Shown here in pieces: positions 553-23,800 of a DNA stretch of 34,057 nt. The notes under the pieces are model-generated. The model was given only the letters and a program-made list of their open reading frames with translations. It ran no database searches and was not told the origin of the DNA. The position numbers were made by a program, and so were the translations under genes. The DNA comes from a virus. Position 1 is the stretch's first letter. Every line of letters begins with the position of its first letter. The stretch is from positions 1 through 34,057 of the IMG/VR virus record IMGVR_UViG_3300034283_000231; one strand, written 5' to 3'.

Positions 553-738
553 TTAGTTTTTATTGTTGTAGTTAACGATATACCCTAATGAGGATATAGA
601 AAAAAGAATGAAGCCCCCCACTATAAGTAGTCCCGAGGACTCAGTAGCGTAGCCGTGAGATAGTCGTGCGGTAGTCCCTATCAATAACATAAAGATTGAT
701 ACGTAGATGCCGTTGCGGAAGAAAATTTTGTCGCTCAT
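553..738 (-). CDS. Small two-helix membrane protein
   Basis: This 61-residue protein has two hydrophobic stretches, about residues 11-24 (YVSIFMLLIGTTA) and 36-56 (GLLIVGGFILFSISSLGYIV), joined by a short polar loop. It ends in Asn/Lys-rich residues. That is a hairpin topology in the inner membrane. The ATG overlaps the stop of the upstream gene (ATGA), so the two are translationally coupled, and the amidotransferase begins 7 bases downstream. I do not recognise the family. Similar small phage membrane proteins include holins and superinfection-exclusion proteins, but nothing here decides between them. Confidence 0.7.
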   Translation of the reverse strand: MSDKIFFRNGIYVSIFMLLIGTTARLSHGYATESSGLLIVGGFILFSISSLGYIVNYNNKN

Positions 739-935
739 AATTCAAATACTTCAAGTGATACATTACCTTTCTTGTCAATCCATCCTGCCTCAATCAGTCG
801 TTGGGCGGTTCGGCCGTAGTGGCCTTGTAGCAACCAAGCCTGTCCTGTTTGGACAAGTTCAGCAAATAAGAACACGACCTGTTGGTCATCAAGTTCTCCG
901 TTCTCGTATTGTATAATTAGGTCTATCTGACTCAT
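735..935 (-). CDS. DUF7417-like small phage protein
   Basis: The 66-residue protein contains IIQYENGELDDQQVVFLFAELVQTG followed by LLQGHYGRTAQRLIEAG, a pattern I recall from a widespread phage early-protein family (DUF7417-type, function unknown). The sequence is helical, and the LQGHYGRTA block is the signature. The start lies 24 bases downstream of the predicted cleavage site of the hammerhead element at 954-1004. The leader is A-rich with no Shine-Dalgarno. The stop overlaps the start of the membrane-protein gene. Family recognition is from memory; the gene call itself is strong. Confidence 0.8.
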   Translation of the reverse strand: MSQIDLIIQYENGELDDQQVVFLFAELVQTGQAWLLQGHYGRTAQRLIEAGWIDKKGNVSLEVFEL

Positions 936-953
936 AATTTCTATTATTTAATT

Positions 954-1004
954 GGTTAAGACCTACCTAAGTAGGTTTCGGGCATTATCCCTCATCAGTT
1001 AACC
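954..1004 (-). ncRNA. Hammerhead ribozyme, copy 1
   Basis: Read leftward, the element has stem I GGUUAA/UUAACC (1004-999 with 959-954) and core CUGAUGA (998-992). Stem II is GGG/CCC with a 6-base loop, then GAAA (979-976). Stem III is CCUAC/GUAGG with loop UUAG. An A-U closing pair and C at 960 complete it. These are all conserved nucleotides of a type I hammerhead. Cleavage would fall between 960 and 959, leaving a 24-base A-rich leader on the DUF7417-like mRNA. Stems II and III differ from the other copies yet stay paired, which is covariation. The stop codon of the 84-residue gene lies 4 bases upstream of stem I. Confidence 0.9.
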
Positions 1005-1008
1005 TTCA

Positions 1009-1263
1009 CTACCAACTCCCGCCACTCCAATCTTCGTTTAAGTCATACGTACCATCTTCTCTTTGAGGAGCAAGCACATAACTGAATGGCCCATCAGCCG
1101 AATCTGCTGCACTCTTTTCAGCATCATAAAGTTCTTCTAGTGATGTCATCTTATACGCTCGTCGAGCATAGCCCCCATCACAATCCTTAGCCGAATAGTT
1201 CATCCAAAAGTATCCGTCTTTTAGCAGTCTCTTCAAGATTTCATTTTCTCTTTCTAAATTCAT
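1009..1263 (-). CDS. Hypothetical acidic protein, 84 aa
   Basis: I do not recognise this protein. It has a charged helical N-terminus (MNLERENEILKRLLKDG), an aromatic middle with two cysteine-free tyrosine clusters, and an acidic Gly/Trp-rich tail ending DWSGGSW. It is flanked on both sides by hammerhead elements: copy 2 lies upstream and copy 1 begins 4 bases after its stop. If both cut, it would be carried on its own mRNA of about 330 bases. The start follows the leader pattern AAUAGAAAAU-AUG seen in neighbouring genes. Confidence 0.75.
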   Translation of the reverse strand: MNLERENEILKRLLKDGYFWMNYSAKDCDGGYARRAYKMTSLEELYDAEKSAADSADGPFSYVLAPQREDGTYDLNEDWSGGSW

Positions 1264-1281
1264 ATTTTCTATTGTTTAATT

Positions 1282-1328
1282 GGTTAAGACGCCTCGCGGC
1301 GTTTCGGCTATTGCCTCATCAGTTAACC
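1282..1328 (-). ncRNA. Hammerhead ribozyme, copy 2
   Basis: This is the most compact copy, 47 bases. Stem I is GGUUAA/UUAACC (1328-1323 with 1287-1282), then CUGAUGA (1322-1316). Stem II is GGC-AAUA-GCC, then GAAA (1305-1302). Stem III is CGCC-GCGA-GGCG, closed by a GNRA tetraloop, followed by U and the cleavage-site C at 1288. Cutting between 1288 and 1287 would leave a 24-base leader on the 84-residue protein mRNA. The UAA stop of the upstream gene lies inside stem I, so coding sequence and ribozyme overlap by 6 bases. Confidence 0.92.
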
Positions 1329-1523
1329 TTGGTCTTCTAAGTATTGAGTAAGCACCTCCTCGGCTCCGTTTAATTGGCGCTCAAGTTCGATACTCTGACT
1401 CTCTATGATATCAAACGCAACTAGTTTGTAGCGTTCGCTTTCATCAGTTGCCTCAATGAACCTCGATACCTTGTCTAGGTACGTGTCATAGGCTCTCATC
1501 ATTTCTTTCAGTTCGTGTTTCAT
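1323..1523 (-). CDS. Hypothetical helical protein, 66 aa
   Basis: The protein starts MKHELKEMMRAYDTYLDK and is predicted almost wholly helical and acidic, with ELERQLNGAEEVLTQYLEDQ at the C-terminus suggesting a coiled coil. A longer reading from 1580 would overlap most of the neighbour's end; the start at 1523 leaves one base after the neighbour's TAA and is preferred. Its own stop codon sits in stem I of hammerhead copy 2. I do not recognise the family. Confidence 0.7.
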   Translation of the reverse strand: MKHELKEMMRAYDTYLDKVSRFIEATDESERYKLVAFDIIESQSIELERQLNGAEEVLTQYLEDQG

Positions 1524-1524
1524 A

Positions 1525-1731
1525 TTATAGATTATTAAAGTATTCATCAATGCATTCAAGTTCGCTCTTGCTGTCAACATTGTACTTGCTTTTTAGGAAC
1601 TTGGCGTACTCAATGATTGCGTCAGACCAAAATATATCGAGGCCGTCAATCTTATATCCCATTGCCAACATTCGGTCGGTCATACAAAACACTCCGTATG
1701 ATTCTTCGTGGTTAATTACTGATTTGTTCAT
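1525..1731 (-). CDS. Hypothetical protein, 68 aa
   Basis: I chose the ATG at 1731 (MNKSVINHEESYG) over the upstream in-frame one at 1770. It avoids overlapping the upstream gene, and it follows the leader CAAAUAGAAACU-AUG, which matches the AAUAGAAA leaders of other genes in this arm. The product is acidic with aromatic residues (IDGLDIFWSDAIIEYAKFLKSKY) and no membrane segment. No family was recognised. It sits between two other small unknown genes with 1- and 20-base gaps and no ribozyme between them, so these three would share one processed mRNA. Confidence 0.68.
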   Translation of the reverse strand: MNKSVINHEESYGVFCMTDRMLAMGYKIDGLDIFWSDAIIEYAKFLKSKYNVDSKSELECIDEYFNNL

Positions 1732-1751
1732 AGTTTCTATTTGTTTATTTG

Positions 1752-2174
1752 TTATTGAATCGTGAACCAATCCTCGTCCATATTGAACTCGTCGATTTGC
1801 GCTTGACTAACGAATGCCTCGCAGTACCACGAATCTCCGCCATCGCTATTGGTGGTTAAGTCAGCCATTACAATGGTTCCAAGTAGGGTCTCCCACTCAC
1901 GGGTGAAGTCGTTTACATCTTCTTCGGTTCCGTCAAAGTATGTCCAAACTCGAAGTTCATTTGCTTCTTCGTGGCCTCCCTCCATTACTACTACATAACC
2001 TAATCCTAGAACCTCCTTGAGTCGTTCCTCACTAGTAATTAGTGCCTCATTTAGTTCATCATTAAGTTCAAATAGTGGTACACTATTGGTTGCCCATAGA
2101 GCCAAGGCTAGGTCGGTTACGTTTACGAATGTGAATCCGTCTTCAGTCTTAATTATTCGATTTTCCATATCCAT
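1752..2174 (-). CDS. Hypothetical acidic protein, 140 aa
   Basis: The protein starts MDMENRIIKTEDGFTFVNVTD, with another possible start two codons later. The longer open frame beginning with GTG at 2204 runs inside hammerhead copy 3 and is rejected. The sequence is strongly acidic with alternating strand-like and helical segments (ELRVWTYFDGTEEDVNDFTREWE) and one Cys near the C-terminus. I do not recognise it. Its leader after ribozyme cleavage would be 20 bases. Confidence 0.72.
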   Translation of the reverse strand: MDMENRIIKTEDGFTFVNVTDLALALWATNSVPLFELNDELNEALITSEERLKEVLGLGYVVVMEGGHEEANELRVWTYFDGTEEDVNDFTREWETLLGTIVMADLTTNSDGGDSWYCEAFVSQAQIDEFNMDEDWFTIQ

Positions 2175-2188
2175 ATTAATTGTTTTTT

Positions 2189-2238
2189 GGTTAAGATGCC
2201 TCACGGCATTTCGGCTACTGAAGCCTCATCGGTTAACC
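2189..2238 (-). ncRNA. Hammerhead ribozyme, copy 3, with U4-to-C core change
   Basis: The fold matches the other copies: stem I GGUUAA/UUAACC, stem II GGCU/AGCC with a 5-base loop, GAAA, stem III UGCC-GUGA-GGCA, then UC. The core, however, reads CCGAUGA instead of CUGAUGA, because the + strand has G rather than A at 2231. U4 is normally invariant, so this copy may be slow or inactive. Stem III has changed on both sides relative to copies 2 and 4 while staying paired, so structure was maintained at least until recently. It follows a terminator-like hairpin after the amidoligase gene. Confidence 0.8.
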
Positions 2239-2246
2239 TTTGTTTT

Positions 2247-2284
2247 GTGATAGTGAAAAAGAATGAGGGGCGCCGTGCCGCCCT
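2247..2284 (-). terminator. Leftward terminator after the amidoligase gene
   Basis: Read leftward, a GC-rich hairpin of the form GAGGG...CCCUC (with inner GGC/GCC pairs) spans about 2264-2284. It is followed by UUCUUUUUC at about 2255-2263. It lies between the amidoligase stop and hammerhead copy 3. It could stop or attenuate the transcript, or protect the 3' end of the amidoligase mRNA. Because the small genes further left show no clear promoter of their own, read-through is likely. Confidence 0.6.
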
Positions 2285-2318
2285 CACTCAACCTTAACCT
2301 TCCTGCACGGGGAACATA

Positions 2319-3842
2319 TTACAACTCGCCCTTGGCCTTGTTGACCACGAACGAACCGAACTTACTCTCTACCTCACGGCGAACGTATAAGTTCACGCTA
2401 TTGTAGGCTCGTTTCATACGCTCTATTGTACGCTCGTAGTTGTCGGCGCTTCCTAGGAAGTCAGACGCTGACTGACCCTCGAGGCATCCTCCGAATACGT
2501 ATGCTAGTGCCTGCTTACGCGCCAACTTATCGGCGCTATACTGCTGACGTAGCAACTTGTTCAACTTCTTATCGCTGAACATTGCATCGGCAACCTTAGT
2601 GAACGTAGTAAGTTCACCCTTATCAATCTGAGCGCATATCCATTGAACCAACTTCGTGCGGAACTTGATTGAATCGAGCGTTGATACGGCGCTGAAGATG
2701 CGAATCTCTACCGCGTTCTTCGGGCGGTAGCCGCGCTTGCAGTTGTGAATTGCTTTGCGTGAGCCGCCCTTCATTTCACTCTTGGTTTGAACTCCGCCGT
2801 ATTGTGTTGATAGGCGGCCTTCGTACAGGGAGAAAAGTAGCGGCGCGAACGGAGCCAACTTATCGATTAAGTCATCGGCATCCATACCTCTGCGGCTTAT
2901 TGTGATATGACCGCCACAGGCACGTGAGTAGCCTGCGTCCATAACCCAAGAGAACTCATCGAACTGCTCGAATAAATGCTTCGTGTTGAATAGGTCGAAC
3001 ACGGGAGACACGAACTCAACGCCCGTGGTTCCGTCAAGTGAACTATCTGACTCAGCGAACCAACCTCCGCCGAGGTTGCTATTAAGACGGCGTGCTCGGT
3101 TGCGTACTCCCAAGTCCTCCTTCTCGACCTCATAACCCACAAACCAATTAACCGACTCTTGGTTGAAGATGTCGTTGGTACGTGTCGTTTGGTGGTAACC
3201 TCCGAGCCTTGGTAGCGCCCCGTGAAGTTCACGTGCGGTTTGGTTCTCAAAGATTGAATTGCGACCCTCAGAATTTTCACCCCAAACGTATTGATTGGTA
3301 TCGCGATTCCGAATCTTTTGAATGATATTGTTTTGCTCGTGGTCGCTTAGATGAATAGTCTCCTCAACTCCCGACTCCGTGATGTATCGGTAGGCCGTGG
3401 TATGGTAAGCGCGATTTACAAGGTCGGTGAGTGTTAGCACTCCGTCAATCAATCGTGTAATGAATACGTATTGGTATGATTCGTCGAACTCATCGAACTT
3501 CTGAAGCATATCATCCGCTAGGTGAGCCTGTGAGATACCCGATATTGAGATATCATTTTGGCGCATCAAGTTCGGCAAGCGGAAGAATTGACCACGGCGA
3601 TAGTTCTCTCCGTCCACGTTGATTAGAACCGACGTGTGAGCCTGTAGGTCGCGGTCGATTCCGTATGCGGTGCAGTCGATTGCCGAGGGGAATCGTGATT
3701 GGGTGATGCGTTGTTCCTCCTCATCGTAGTATTGATAGACAAAATAATTGTCCTTGAACCCGAAGTAGAAGTTAAATTGAGAATTTTGGTAGGCGCGGTG
3801 CAGTTCAATCTGCCGACCCGATACGATATTGGTAACTTTCAT
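2319..3842 (-). CDS. Amidoligase-like enzyme
   Basis: This 507-residue protein carries the pattern of the Amidoligase_2 family: GYEVEKED (about residue 234; the acidic GxExE block), SSLDGTTGVEFVSPVF (about 265-280; the D...G.E.VSP block), and CGGHITIS (about 309-316; the CGxH block). The family forms amide bonds between a carboxylate and an amine with ATP and has a glutamine-synthetase-like fold. The N-terminal 220 residues and C-terminal 130 residues are not recognised and may bind substrate. The class II amidotransferase at the left edge could supply ammonia or trim a product; phage and bacterial amidoligases have been found next to such genes. The start is 18 bases after the cleavage site of hammerhead copy 4. 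The target, whether cell wall, protein or nucleotide, is unknown. Confidence 0.75.
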   Translation of the reverse strand: MKVTNIVSGRQIELHRAYQNSQFNFYFGFKDNYFVYQYYDEEEQRITQSRFPSAIDCTAYGIDRDLQAHTSVLINVDGENYRRGQFFRLPNLMRQNDISISGISQAHLADDMLQKFDEFDESYQYVFITRLIDGVLTLTDLVNRAYHTTAYRYITESGVEETIHLSDHEQNNIIQKIRNRDTNQYVWGENSEGRNSIFENQTARELHGALPRLGGYHQTTRTNDIFNQESVNWFVGYEVEKEDLGVRNRARRLNSNLGGGWFAESDSSLDGTTGVEFVSPVFDLFNTKHLFEQFDEFSWVMDAGYSRACGGHITISRRGMDADDLIDKLAPFAPLLFSLYEGRLSTQYGGVQTKSEMKGGSRKAIHNCKRGYRPKNAVEIRIFSAVSTLDSIKFRTKLVQWICAQIDKGELTTFTKVADAMFSDKKLNKLLRQQYSADKLARKQALAYVFGGCLEGQSASDFLGSADNYERTIERMKRAYNSVNLYVRREVESKFGSFVVNKAKGEL

Positions 3843-3854
3843 AAAATTGTTTTT

Positions 3855-3907
3855 GGTTAAGACGTCTCTCGACGTTTCGGCTACTATTTAAGCCTCATCA
3901 GTTAACC
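3855..3907 (-). ncRNA. Hammerhead ribozyme, copy 4
   Basis: Read leftward: stem I GGUUAA/UUAACC (3907-3902 with 3860-3855), CUGAUGA (3901-3895), stem II GGCU/AGCC with an 8-base loop, GAAA (3878-3875), stem III CGUC-GAGA-GACG, then U and C at 3861. All conserved core bases are intact. Cleavage between 3861 and 3860 would give the amidoligase mRNA an 18-base leader. The upstream 65-residue gene ends inside the catalytic core: its UGA stop is the first UGA of C-UGA-UGA. Confidence 0.92.
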
Positions 3908-4095
3908 TCGTATGGTATTGTCTCAGTCCATCCGAACGATACCACGATACCTGCATCTAGGTACTCAGATAGCATCTTGTATGTGTACGTTTCTTTGGCA
4001 TCTAGATTGCTTTGTTCGGGGAAGAAGTGGTCGACTGCCACGCCTGTGTTTCCGTTTCTAATATAGTTGCGGTAGAAGAAATTGTAGGTTTTCAT
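3898..4095 (-). CDS. Hypothetical protein, 65 aa
   Basis: The protein reads MKTYNFFYRNYIRNGNTG at its start and is rich in aromatic residues, with a helical middle (AKETYTYKMLSEYLDAG). It is the first protein gene after the long structured-RNA region, 34 bases downstream of the tRNA-like element. Its last codons and stop lie in stem I and the core of hammerhead copy 4. I do not recognise the family. Confidence 0.72.
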   Translation of the reverse strand: MKTYNFFYRNYIRNGNTGVAVDHFFPEQSNLDAKETYTYKMLSEYLDAGIVVSFGWTETIPYEVN

Positions 4096-4129
4096 AGTAA
4101 TTGTTTTTAGATTGATTGATTAAAGTTTG

Positions 4130-4180
4130 ACTGCCGTAGGGACTCGAACCCTATGCACATTGTGCACTCCGAGCGGCAGT
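4130..4180 (-). ncRNA. Mini tRNA-like element lacking D and anticodon arms
   Basis: Read leftward, a perfect 7-bp acceptor-type helix (ACUGCCG at 4180-4174 with CGGCAGU at 4136-4130) encloses three parts. They are a 7-base linker CUCGGAG, a 5-bp hairpin (UGCAC-AAU-GUGCA, 4166-4154) and a canonical T-arm. The T-arm has stem UAGGG/CCCUA (4153-4149 with 4141-4137) around the loop UUCGAGU. The next base would be discriminator C; no CCA is encoded. Total 51 nt, against about 75-90 for a tRNA. It could be a processing signal for RNase P or RNase Z, a tRNA mimic, or the 3' end of the longer RNA upstream. Confidence 0.65.
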
Positions 4181-4813
4181 TATTTGCCTTGAACGGAAGA
4201 ACATTTTTAGCGGCCTGTGGGGAAACCCTGCTGACCGCATACGTTGTTAGTTCTACCACATCCTCGCATTCTTTGGCGATGCTTTTTACGCACCGCATAT
4301 CCTGTCTATTGAGGTTGTTGTTCTTGGCTTTGTTTTGACTTGATTCACTTGAGTGTTCCTGTGGCGTTCATTGGCTCCCCCTCAACCGCTTGAAACGTCC
4401 GCGCCACGGCGCTTTGTTTTCTTTTGATTGAGGCTCGGTTTCTTACGGCTACCATACTTGGTCTCGCTCGTCTTGTCTTACCTGCCCTTGCTACTTTCGT
4501 TCGGAGTGTGCTAACCTACTGATGCTACTCATTTAGATTACTTCGCCTACTCTACCTGACCTGACCTGCTACTCCGCTCTTAAACGCCCGACAAACTTTG
4601 AGCCGTGGCTCGCTGAATGAATCGTACTAAGTTCACAAGGTGGGTTTCAGATATTTGGGAGGCACTTTCGTTAGCCTCACTCCGCCTATCGTCACTTGGG
4701 ACTTTCCTGCCTACTCTACTCTTATCTCGGCTCCGCCTCTGATTTCGTGTTTCGGTTGATATTTCAAAAAACATTGTCGGCTTGCTAGTGCTGTCGGCCC
4801 GTTGGCCTTTCGA
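4181..4813 (-). ncRNA. Candidate large structured leader RNA
   Basis: A consensus promoter (4819-4849) reads leftward into about 630 bases with no convincing protein gene. Hairpins visible in the RNA sense include GUGCC-free examples such as GGCC-AACG-GGCC within UGUC/GACA (4792-4815), GAGC-CACG-GCUC (4600-4611), and GCGGUC...GGCCGC with an inner GGG-UUU-CCC (4210-4238). The 11-base sequence GUAGAGUAGGC occurs twice (4709-4719 and 4545-4555), and CAGGU is repeated in tandem next to the second copy. The base composition is purine-rich on the transcribed strand. It ends at the tRNA-like element. I cannot assign it to a known RNA class; large phage RNAs found near tRNAs (GOLLD, ROOL) are the closest idea, unproven. 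Confidence 0.55.
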
Positions 4814-4818
4814 CACCA

Positions 4819-4849
4819 CAAACATACAACGACTTTACAATTCTGCAAA
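4819..4849 (-). promoter_or_regulatory. Leftward Bacteroidota-type promoter
   Basis: On the minus strand TTTG (4849-4846) is followed after 19 bases by TATGTTTG (4826-4819), matching the Bacteroidota consensus TTTG and TAnnTTTG with normal spacing. The start site should be near 4813. It is the only full-consensus promoter I see for the leftward arm, so the structured RNA and the genes to its left probably share it. Confidence 0.8.
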
Positions 4850-4905
4850 CTTTTGCCAAAAGAAATTTCGATGACCCTCGCCGCGTAATAGGAATATATA
4901 GGGCT

Positions 4906-5123
4906 AACTACTTGATAATCAGCACCCAAAAAAAACTTTACCCCGACCCTTAATTTGTAATCAGTCTAAATAAAAGTAACTGAGAATCAATGAGTTAGTA
5001 ACAGCCTCAGAATCAACAAGTTAGTAACTCACTGAAACCTAGTAAGATACAACTAATTGAAATACAATAAGTTAACGCAACTAATTGATACTCAAGGACT
5101 CCCAATAACTACTTGATAGTCAA
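4906..5123. repeat. Iteron-like repeat cluster
   Basis: Copies of a motif close to AACTAnTTGATAnTCAA occur at 4906-4921, 5051-5067 (degenerate), 5079-5095 and 5107-5123. In opposite orientation, two 22-base copies matching at 19 positions lie at 4981-5002 and 5007-5028 (GAATCAA..AGTTAGTAAC). Several contain the short inverted repeat TTGA-N3-TCAA. The surrounding A+T-rich block separates the leftward and rightward arms. Binding sites for an initiator or repressor, or a replication origin, are the natural readings; no initiator gene is visible in the window. Confidence 0.6.
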
Positions 5124-15314: not shown

Positions 15315-16472
15315 ATGGCACTAAGTCATTTAGTCTCCCTCCAGCTCAACGGATTCCCACTCTTCGGTCTCCGTCCTGAGCACCTATCCACCTCGCAGAT
15401 TACTGGATTAGCAGGAGGTGCGCTTTACACCGGTAGAGTTGTATACGATTCTACGGTTAACAAAATAAAATACTACGACGGTACCGGATGGCACGACATA
15501 ACCGGCGACATCCGCAGCGTAACGGCTGGGGTTGGTCTTACCGGGGGCGGTAGTGACGGCGAGGTAACCATCAGCGTTGCTTCAACCATTGCGGGTAATG
15601 GTCTTACTTGGGACGGCACCACCACTGGAATCCTGAATGTAGGTGTAAGCGATGGCCTTGAAATCACTGGGGACAACGTAAGGTTCAAGAACGCCACCGG
15701 TCTCTCACAGGGAAGGCTGATGATGTGGAATGACGCTAGTACTCAACTTGAGGATGCTAAGGTTCTACAGGAGGCCGTAGCTCTTCAGGGAGGTGGAACG
15801 TCATACACTGTAACCATCGACGCAGAAAATACGGTAATCAGTGGTAACCTTACAGTAAACGGTACCACAACAAGTGTTAACTCAAACGAGGTAAACATCG
15901 GGGACAGCATCATCTTGCTGAACTCTGACATCGCGGCGGGCACCGCCCCGACTGAAAATGGTGGATTCTCCGTAAAGCGAGGTAGCTCAGCCGCCGTATC
16001 GTTCCTATGGGAAGAGGCAAACGACCGATTTACTACGGTTGACCAGCCATTGCACGTCGGTAGCCTACCTTCACTAACCCCGAGTGGAACAACGACCGAC
16101 CACTTCATTATGCAGAGCAATGCAAGTGGTCAAGCTGGAGTTCTTCGCTTGGCTACGTTTACTGCGGTTGCTAACTATCTCGGTCTTCCTATACACTTCT
16201 CACTTGACGACGCTCAGGGTAATGTATCAAAGGCCGCTAACGCATACACGGTGACCCACAACTTTGGGACTAAGGCTGTTATGGCCGAGGTTATTGCATA
16301 CGCAACCCAAGAGACTGTTATTGTTGATATCACAAGGCCCACAAATAATACCATTGTAGTTACATTCGGTGGTGTGGTAACGGACAATACACACTACGTT
16401 GTATTACAAGCGTCAAAGCGCACTGGTGATACGGTAGCGGGCTCAGTAGAGGGTGACGCTCCTGCATCATAA
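15315..16472 (+). CDS. Tail fibre / tail appendage protein, 385 aa
   Basis: This is a beta-rich, Gly/Thr-rich protein. It starts MALSHLVSLQLNGFPLFGLRP and shows fibre-type repeats: VTAGVGLTGGGSDGEVTISV, then GNLTVNGTTTSVNSNEVNIG, a motif common in trimeric fibres. It ends with a HNFGTKA beta module shared with the preceding protein. A rho-independent terminator follows. It probably sits in the same tail complex as the two giant fibres. Confidence 0.78.
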   Translation: MALSHLVSLQLNGFPLFGLRPEHLSTSQITGLAGGALYTGRVVYDSTVNKIKYYDGTGWHDITGDIRSVTAGVGLTGGGSDGEVTISVASTIAGNGLTWDGTTTGILNVGVSDGLEITGDNVRFKNATGLSQGRLMMWNDASTQLEDAKVLQEAVALQGGGTSYTVTIDAENTVISGNLTVNGTTTSVNSNEVNIGDSIILLNSDIAAGTAPTENGGFSVKRGSSAAVSFLWEEANDRFTTVDQPLHVGSLPSLTPSGTTTDHFIMQSNASGQAGVLRLATFTAVANYLGLPIHFSLDDAQGNVSKAANAYTVTHNFGTKAVMAEVIAYATQETVIVDITRPTNNTIVVTFGGVVTDNTHYVVLQASKRTGDTVAGSVEGDAPAS

Positions 16473-20899: not shown

Positions 20900-23800
20900 A
20901 TGGCAAATCTTTTAAGTACCAACGTAAGCGGTAGACTATATGTATCTGGATATGTTGACACTAATGTCAATGGTGCAGCTTTTCGTTTTTATGATGGAAC
21001 AACATTCCGTGGAGGTCTTGGCCTTGATGACTGGGCTCATAGCGGAAGTGCTGCTGATATTACAATGTATGTTGCAGGAGCTGGTACATTTTATATTACT
21101 ACTAATTCCGTAAAAAGACACTGGTTTAATGGTGCTGAGGTTGCGTTTAGAACTTACGCACCAGACTTAAACTATAAGACTTCATTTGTTGGTGGAGACC
21201 AATTAAATGCATATTATGGTTCTGGTTCAGCAACGCTATATGTACAATATCACAACGGCTCTGGTGGAAACTTTAATGTTGGAGCTGGTAAACTAACTGT
21301 AGATACGGCAGGAACCGTTATTGCATCTGGTTCATTGCGAGCCCCCATATTCTACGACTCTAACGATACCACATATTACCTAGACCCAAACTCAAGTACA
21401 TCTGGTTACTTCGCTGGCACACTAAGGCAAAACGTAGGTAAGTATGTTAGAGACAGCTACTACAGAACTATTAGCGGATATGGAGACTACTACAGCAGTG
21501 GCAATGCTGGTTGGACTCGTGTGGCTGAAATACGACTCACGAGTAACTGTGGTGGAGCTGTTCTTTACGGAACACTATATGACCATAGATATGATGGTGC
21601 TGATGCGTATCAAATCTCTATTGTAGCTAGAGCCGAGTGTGACTTTACATCAAACAATGAGTCTCACTACATAAATGTTGGATGTACCATTACTGGCTCT
21701 ACTGCATATTCAAACTATAGAGATAAGATTAGAGTACTACTTATTGAGTCATCCGCTGGTAGTAGAAAGTATGAGGTTCAGTTCTATGAGACAAACTGGA
21801 ACCACAATACCTGGCAACTAGAAAGTAACGGCTGGACTGTTCTATCATCAGCGGAAGCCCCTGGTGCGTCTGTCGGTGGAGAGAGAGTGAACTATATCTC
21901 TAATCAAAACGCTGACAATGTTAGGGCAAACTCAGCGGTTTATTCTCCAATCTTCTACGACTCTGCCGACACTGCATACTACGTAGACCCAAACAGTACA
22001 TCAAACCTTGCAGCATCATATATAGGTCGTGTTCTTATTAACTATGATGGTACAGACACTTGGTTTAGAATGCAGTCTGGAAACAGAATGCGAATTACAA
22101 CTACTGGAGGTACTGATTTTATTATACCGAACACTGGAGAGATGACGTATAACGGTAATACTGTTATACATTCTGGAAACATCGGCTCTCAGTCGGTAAG
22201 CTATGCAACTACTGCAGGTTCTATAACCAGCCAGGCAAACTCTGCTACTATAACGGCAGCTACGGCAGCTACGATAAATACGATAGCATTAAGAGATGCT
22301 AGTGGTGATTTAACGGTAAGAGAACTTGTAATGAACGTGGCTGTTCAGAACTTTACTCCATCTTCAATGGTGGCCATTTACCCAACTACAAATCAAGCTG
22401 TAAAGGTTGATGCTTCGGGAGCTAGAGCTTTTCTAAATGTCCCTACAAAAACAGGAGGAGACGCAAGTGGTACTTGGGGTATAAGTATTACAGGTAACGC
22501 TAACACTGCTACTAGCGCAGGGTCTGCAACTTCTGCATCAACAGCCGGATTTTCTGACGAAGCAAAATGGATTTCTTATCCAGACGGACCGCGTGATTTA
22601 AGTGATAGGTCTCCAAGCTGGAATAACAGGTCAGTTGCTTGGGATTTTGTTGGGGCTGGTACTGCTAATGGTTCTGGTAATTATGGTGGTGTAATGACAT
22701 TTGTTCCCTGGGATGGGACAAGTGCAAGCACAGGAGACTCATCTTATCAGTTGGCGTTCGCTAATACTACAGGTGTAAATGCTAGTGGACAACCCAAACT
22801 TAGCATTAGAAATGGAATTAATTCTACTTGGAATGCTTGGTATACACTCATCCACTCAGGTAACATCGGCTCTCAGTCTGTAACCTATGCGACAAGCGCA
22901 GGTAGCGCAGGTACCGCAGGCTCTGCTGGTTCTGTTGATGGTTTGACTTTAACTTCCTCTGCAAACAACCTTAACCCAAACGATGTAACCCAAAACCAGA
23001 TAGGTTACAATACAAGCGTTTCGTTATTCGGACAGACAGATGGGGGACTATACTCATCAGCGTACAGTAGTTCTTGGATTCACCAAATTTACGGGGACTT
23101 CAGGTCGGGACAGATTGCAATCAGAGGTAAGAATTCCGGCACTTGGGGAGACTGGAGATTAGTAGTGGACGATAAGAACATCAGTTCTTATGCCGTACCA
23201 TACGGTAATATGACCAGCAGCACTGGTCTTAACGACAATAAGCTGTATCTTAGGACTAACGGAGATAATAACCACTACATATGGAATGCTGCCGACGACT
23301 GGGAGGAAATTGTAGCATATAGTGGAACAGGATTAAGAATCGCTTCAAGCACTGGAGTAACACTTGCTACTTTTAGTACTAGTGGTAACTCAATGAATAT
23401 CACTGGGAACGCTGCGACAGCTACTTATGCTACTAGTGCTGGAAGTGCAGGGGCAGTAGCCTGGGGGAATGTATCTAGCAAGCCAGGTAACATTATGTTT
23501 TACGAAGGGTTTACTCTCGACGCGAACACAATGACCACAAACTCCACTGGATTTACATATGCTAATAACGCTCCATTTTATGGTCCTATTGCACGATTTA
23601 GCACTGGAGGTGGATATGATTTATGGCTCGGTGGTTCGTACAATGGGGGTGGAAATGCGTTTTTTCTTAGAACAAGAGATGGTGATGCTGGTGCATTAAA
23701 TGCTTGGAGAGAAATTATTACTTCCGGTAACATCGGTTCTCAGTCGGTAAGCTATGCAACTACTGCAGGTTCATTAACCTCTATGAACATATCACAGTTC

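Follow-up and report, generated by a model that had tools for sequence, protein, structure and literature searches.

The window considered here is the whole of a 34,057-nucleotide (nt) stretch of viral DNA (IMG/VR record IMGVR_UViG_3300034283_000231), in which four short elements lie between the leftward genes of a phage. All four are on the minus strand of the 34-kb window and are 47–53 nt long, and by sequence and structure they are type I hammerhead ribozymes, far above chance. They are listed below in the order in which a leftward transcript would run through them, together with their scores under R1, a covariance model whose 40 gapless 54-nt sequences came from other phages, neither the window nor its relatives being included.

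3855 to 3907, minus strand: type I hammerhead; predicted cut 3861/3860; R1 66.1 bits, E 8.2e-16
2189 to 2238, minus strand: type I hammerhead with a U4C core; predicted cut 2195/2194; R1 67.2 bits, E 3.9e-16
1282 to 1328, minus strand: type I hammerhead; predicted cut 1288/1287; R1 63.3 bits, E 4.8e-15
954 to 1004, minus strand: type I hammerhead; predicted cut 960/959; R1 48.0 bits, E 7.4e-11

Each copy presents its parts in the order GGUUAA - C(U/C)GAUGA - stem II - GAAA - stem III - U C - UUAACC. Stem I (GGUUAA/UUAACC) has six base pairs and is identical in all four copies, and all four also have the A15.1-U16.1 pair, C17 at the cleavage site and G12, A13 and A14 in the GAAA segment. The core is CUGAUGA in three copies; in 2189-2238 it reads CCGAUGA (U4C) and is thus off consensus at position 4. 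Stems II and III differ among the four but pairing is kept, and the minimum free energy (MFE) fold given by ViennaRNA for each copy with its flanks is exactly the three-way hammerhead in every case, with stems II and III capped and stem I open. Loop II is the canonical UNARU in 2189-2238, the only copy with the family-consensus loop; it exceeds the family consensus length by 3 nt in 3855-3907, short in 1282-1328 and non-canonical in 954-1004. A/A flanks are found outside stem I in the window copies. Searching the 34-kb window with R1 returned exactly these four elements and no other match (48.0–67.2 bits; E 7.4e-11 to 3.9e-16), whilst scanning 1.17 Mb of retrieved loci for the structure yielded 158 elements, as against none on reversed or complement controls. 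An earlier reading of this DNA made from its letters alone (hereafter the sequence-only reading) had described four 47–53-base elements with all of these parts, and the sequence, the R1 matches and the MFE folds confirm that description.

Covariation drawn from four copies of a single genome is thin evidence, and it is larger sets of phages that supply it. Three scans of sequence collections gave at least about 120 stretches each, the family counts reported here being counts among the matches listed; judged by these matches, the hammerhead group is common and widespread in tailed phages. Pairing could be assessed without bias by fixing only part of the motif in a scan. With the core and stem-loop II alone fixed, so that stem I was free (test A), stem I was paired at six of six positions in 128 of 130 elements, compared with 9% for shuffled partners, and 58 distinct stem I sequences occurred among the 128 paired elements. 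With stem I and the core alone fixed, so that stems II and III were free (test B), stem III was paired at four of four positions in 127 of 133 elements (8% when shuffled) and stem II at three of three in 98 of 133 (18% when shuffled), the shortfall in stem II reflecting in part additional unpaired or shifted bases. In the same set U16.1 was present in 131 of 133 elements and position 17 was C in 98, A in 34 and G in one. Isolates of the Flavobacterium phage elemo carry ribozymes that are identical except for compensatory changes at two pairs of stem II (GACU/AGUC versus GGUU/AACC). The sequence-only reading held that stem I is invariant whilst stems II and III covary: this is so within the window, and covariation is seen in the larger sets, but the invariance of stem I is not general.

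The wider family also displays a regular link between loop II and the outer end of stem I. Where stem-loop II is 13 nt long and follows the pattern NNNN-UNAR-N-NNNN, 216 of 218 elements have a stem I of exactly 6 bp, the 5′ flank is A in 217, the 3′ flank is A in 216 and the outermost pair is G-C in 208. Elements with a GNRA tetraloop in this position have a pyrimidine and UA as flanks (8/8) and, in seven of eight, an A-U outer pair. Such concerted change at the two sites suggests a docking contact. In natural type I hammerheads, contact between loop II and the helix I region speeds cleavage, and in the type I (extended) hammerhead of Schistosoma mansoni, which has the same topology as the window copies, cleavage speed is set by loop II contacts with a bulge in helix I (PMC6155905). 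The phage elements differ in that unpaired flanks beyond a bare 6-bp stem I make up their would-be bulge. The pattern points to loop II docking on the A/A pair that flanks stem I, and so speeding cleavage, in most family members. A second group of phage type I hammerheads was also encountered, G+C-rich and with a 4–5-bp stem I and a long stem II (L142, L157, L178, L184, L220 and L224); in some contigs (L178) these are followed by a repeated gcggaagcc tail.

Placement between genes was compared with random positions for the 332 elements with sufficient flanking sequence. An upstream stop codon at −30 to +26 of stem I accompanies 73% of elements (19% at random), an ATG-started open reading frame (ORF) begins no more than 40 nt after the cut in 81% (20% at random) and both features are found together in 60% (4% at random). 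In most cases the stop is no more than 10 nt from stem I or falls in the ribozyme itself, with offsets relative to stem I that peak at −3, −2, +3 and +7, and the median distance from the cut to the next start codon is 24 nt. The sense frame is open through the element in only six of 326 cases, compared with 30% of random positions. The elements lie between co-directional genes, and in all 33 of the multi-copy records every copy is on one strand, a pattern also seen in a listing of 36 records. Both the type I identity and the intercistronic position proposed by the sequence-only reading are therefore borne out by R1, the folds and these placement statistics. Shine–Dalgarno-like motifs 3′ of the cut were found in 101 of 155 leaders outside the phages with GGTTAA or GATTAA as stem I and in 14 of 133 inside that group. 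Their rarity in the latter group is in keeping with Bacteroidota-like hosts, in which Shine–Dalgarno motifs are expected to be scarce; the relatives of the window terminase are mostly from Flavobacterium and Cellulophaga phages.

The window array shows the same arrangement gene by gene. Its features, with homologues in two related loci, L326 and L327, are as follows.

3898 to 4095, minus strand: 65-amino acid (aa) ORF preceding the first ribozyme, whose stem I and core contain the final codons of the ORF (GTT AAC TGA)
2319 to 3842, minus strand: 507-aa protein, with homologues in L326 (56%) and L327 (50%)
2256 to 2286, minus strand: hairpin resembling an intrinsic terminator, with a T run, in the gap that follows the 507-aa gene and precedes ribozyme 2189-2238
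1752 to 2174, minus strand: 140-aa ORF directly after ribozyme 2189-2238; the L326 and L327 homologues are also directly after a ribozyme
1009 to 1263, minus strand: 84-aa ORF with ribozymes on both sides (1282-1328 and 954-1004)
735 to 935, minus strand: 66-aa DUF7417 protein, the first gene after ribozyme 954-1004

The TGA at 3900-3898, within the CUGAUGA core of 3855-3907, is the stop codon of the 65-aa gene, and the ATG of the 507-aa gene (3842) is 18 nt past the cut. Ribozyme 2189-2238 sits 80 nt after the 507-aa gene, with the next ATG (2174) 20 nt past the cut. For 1282-1328, a TAA in stem I (1325-1323) is the stop of the preceding gene and the ATG at 1263 is 24 nt past the cut; for 954-1004, a TAG (1011-1009) ends 4 nt before the element and the ATG at 935 is again 24 nt past the cut. 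The 507-aa protein has no Pfam match and no relative in the annotated phage collection, so that gene function offers no clue here; its L326 homologue likewise has a ribozyme in front. In the region corresponding to 735-2174, the homologues of 1323-1580 and 1752-2174 are in swapped order in the window compared with L326 and L327, and despite the swap a ribozyme remains at the 3′ end of the 1323-1580 homologue and another at the 5′ end of the 1752-2174 homologue. The ribozymes have stayed with their genes through this reordering, as if marking the borders of cassettes.

The anatomy of the elements, the covariation of all three stems across phages, the sense orientation and the intergenic placement are established at the level of sequence. 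From these we consider it highly probable that the four type I hammerheads cut a polycistronic phage transcript running leftward, on the 3′ side of C17 and between genes, the most likely role being to split one polycistronic messenger RNA (mRNA) into gene-length mRNAs without a nuclease. Cleavage would be co-transcriptional. As the site comes after or overlaps the stop codon and precedes the next leader, the stop would stay on the upstream product and the start codon and any Shine–Dalgarno motif on the downstream one. Hammerhead chemistry would leave the upstream mRNA ending in the stem III hairpin with a 2′,3′-cyclic phosphate, whilst the downstream mRNA would begin 5′-OH-UUAACC and have a short open leader (18, 20, 24 and 24 nt in the window phage). 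Each ribozyme would act jointly as 3′-end maker for one gene and 5′-end maker for the next, and the gene-length mRNAs may then be stabilised or decay separately with no processing nuclease involved, a single transcript across the genes being presumed. The transcript-splitting role put forward in the sequence-only reading holds up as far as placement, strand and published precedent (PMC3088659) can take it.

A number of observations weigh against this interpretation. No Rfam 15 hammerhead model gave a match at E ≤ 10 across the whole window, although the sequence-only reading had looked to these models for a check and the dedicated R1 model matches all four copies, and Rfam hammerhead models likewise found nothing at the gathering threshold in 14 loci rich in these elements. 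The elements are filed under no Rfam accession. Matches in the window to SNORD15, SNORD113, CRISPR-DR9 and Six3os1 were sub-threshold and were taken as chance. The sole Rfam model with any signal is the RAGATH-1-hammerhead (RF03152), which reached 16 bits for one copy when 471 bases were searched, against a gathering score of 56.3; it has a hammerhead core with its parts in the same order as the window copies but also an additional upstream hairpin that they do not have. The failure of Rfam is a gap in the models and not an absence of the motif: the whole group escapes Rfam and a dedicated model is required. The R1 alignment shows two-sided change in 11 of 15 pairs, but its 40 sequences were picked by pairing, which inflates covariation counts, and it is tests A and B that provide the unbiased evidence. 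The terminator-like hairpin just upstream of 2189-2238 speaks against a single transcript; matches of this type are no commoner than shuffled expectation, and in L326 and L327 a hairpin of different sequence occupies the equivalent position. Finally, the loop II insertions or deletions in three window copies and U4C in the fourth make weak cleavage at low magnesium possible, and the window copies may be slower than others of the family for these reasons. Ribozyme 2189-2238 is probably slow: U4C lowers activity in vitro yet still supports viroid infectivity, according to work cited in PMC3088659. All three phages have an impaired ribozyme before the 140-aa gene, with U4C in the window and in L327 (7772-7822) and a mismatched G.A pair in stem II of L326 (~7790); it is possibly a tuned slow cutter.

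Other explanations start from the same observations. The ribozymes might be active but serve mainly in regulation, a terminating ribosome blocking folding so that cleavage reports on translation of the upstream gene. The stop-codon peaks favour this, with TGA at +7 being the core itself and TAA at +3 lying in stem I, and the stop is within the ribozyme in two of the four window copies. The CUGAUGA core and the conserved A-G with which stem I begins would, however, supply such stops for free to genes that abut a ribozyme, with no coupling needed, and 74 of 316 elements have their best stop at least 30 nt upstream; we regard a primarily regulatory role as unlikely. A more elaborate form, in which conserved ribozyme bases provide the stop (TAG at −2, TAA at +3, TGA at +7) to make a ‘stop-and-cut’ module, the ribosome gates self-cleavage and translation of each gene sets whether and when its mRNA leaves the operon, seems to us equally doubtful.

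The common stem I raises another possibility, that a 3′ end carrying GGUUAA and the core could pair with any 5′ UUAACC end and re-ligate to give circular or shuffled mRNAs. All four window copies are GGUUAA, and among the GGUUAA phages (loci L001-L118) this sequence is retained in 37 of 45 further copies, whereas just 4 of the 45 agree with the reference copy in the first four bases of stem III. Elsewhere single arrays contain several versions of stem I: the 39.8-kb contig L303 (G003) has 14 R1 matches of both loop II classes, all on the minus strand between 10942 and 35331, and eight of its copies have five stem I sequences. In the unbiased records, stem I is identical in 14% of pairs within a phage and 1.6% between phages, and stem III in 17% and 4.9%, respectively. 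As stem III is also more alike within a phage, common descent is enough to explain the sharing of stem I. The near-constant stem I of the GGUUAA phages, in which stems II and III are reshuffled between copies, stands as an exception to that account. Stem I as a genome-wide address for trans-ligation is thus unsupported in general, identity within records not exceeding that of stem III, and was kept only for the GGUUAA phages. Perreault et al. sought spliced and circular products and found none (PMC3088659), and re-ligation appears very improbable. So too does the proposal that the repeats persist at the DNA level, as recombination joints that shuffle small genes, with catalysis incidental or lost in the window phage. 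It draws on the swapped gene order relative to L326 and L327, with a ribozyme kept at the same side of each gene, and on the loop II and core variants of the window, which hint at relaxed constraint. DNA recombination would not, however, need stems that covary without sequence identity, nor a core and flanks that stay conserved while the stems change. Self-cleavage between genes to give gene-length mRNAs remains the interpretation that we prefer.

Hammerheads in such positions have been described before. The sequence-only reading knew of no phage operon partitioned by several of them, but Perreault et al. (2011) reported hammerheads clustered around genes in prophages and inferred that long phage transcripts are processed into operon- or gene-length mRNAs; polycistronic RNAs of ~2 kb were cleaved in vitro, one triple array was cleaved in E. 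coli and no circular or spliced products were detected (PMC3088659). A 2017 review noted that small ORFs are often flanked by several hammerheads, linked these to phages and left their role in bacteria and phages as an open question (PMC6155905). Our literature search, which did not reach subscription papers, found no later report of phage hammerhead arrays. The window elements have in common with the prophage clusters the catalytic motif, intercistronic same-strand clustering and the proposed mRNA-splitting role. The window family differs from them in its uniform open 6-bp stem I, A/A flank, UNARU loop II and tight stop-codon coupling, in having up to 14 copies per contig and in coming mostly from metagenomic phages, where it is known here from sequence alone. 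What is added to the known kind, and sets the family apart from the 2011 clusters by its description, is a widespread, uniform and Rfam-invisible subgroup, with its stop-codon geometry, its coupling of loop II and flank, its arrays of up to 14 and its cultured hosts.

Cultured phages with a single copy are elemo (Flavobacterium), phi18:3 (Cellulophaga), and HTVC019P and Jormungand (Pelagibacter). The copy is at 16302-16363 of NC_055854 in elemo and at 21902-21960 in phi18:3, on the minus strand in both. In elemo, the annotated gene gp65 (NC_055854.1 16289-16396, plus strand) runs antisense over the hammerhead and is probably a spurious ORF. The Variovorax phage VPv64 was rejected as a member (12.5 bits, broken core). 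An exact-pattern scan of bacterial genomes returned 16 stretches, only two of which (L234 and L236) pass the structure test; the other 14 are in line with chance, which was roughly estimated to give between a handful and a dozen.

Phage genes elsewhere in the window encode an Amidase_2 endolysin-like protein, a Peptidase_S74 chaperone domain and a product that matches annotated phage terminase large subunits. Directly upstream of the ribozyme operon, 4120-5094 on the minus strand (L326 4854-5817; L327 5020-5961) comprises ~975 nt with no conserved ORF. This region is 75% identical to L326 and L327, compared with only 50–56% for the neighbouring proteins, and at its end (4133-4185) a tRNA-like fold has an acceptor stem and T-arm with one short hairpin in place of the D and anticodon arms. 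No tRNA is called by ARAGORN, and we consider 4120-5094 a candidate large phage RNA.

With hundreds of near-uniform copies, a narrow stop-cut-start geometry and cultured phage members to hand, the function of bacterial and phage hammerheads is now directly testable. Annotation that relies on Rfam overlooks what is a common family of phage RNAs, and phages may punctuate an operon by means of RNA only, as many as 14 times in a single contig.

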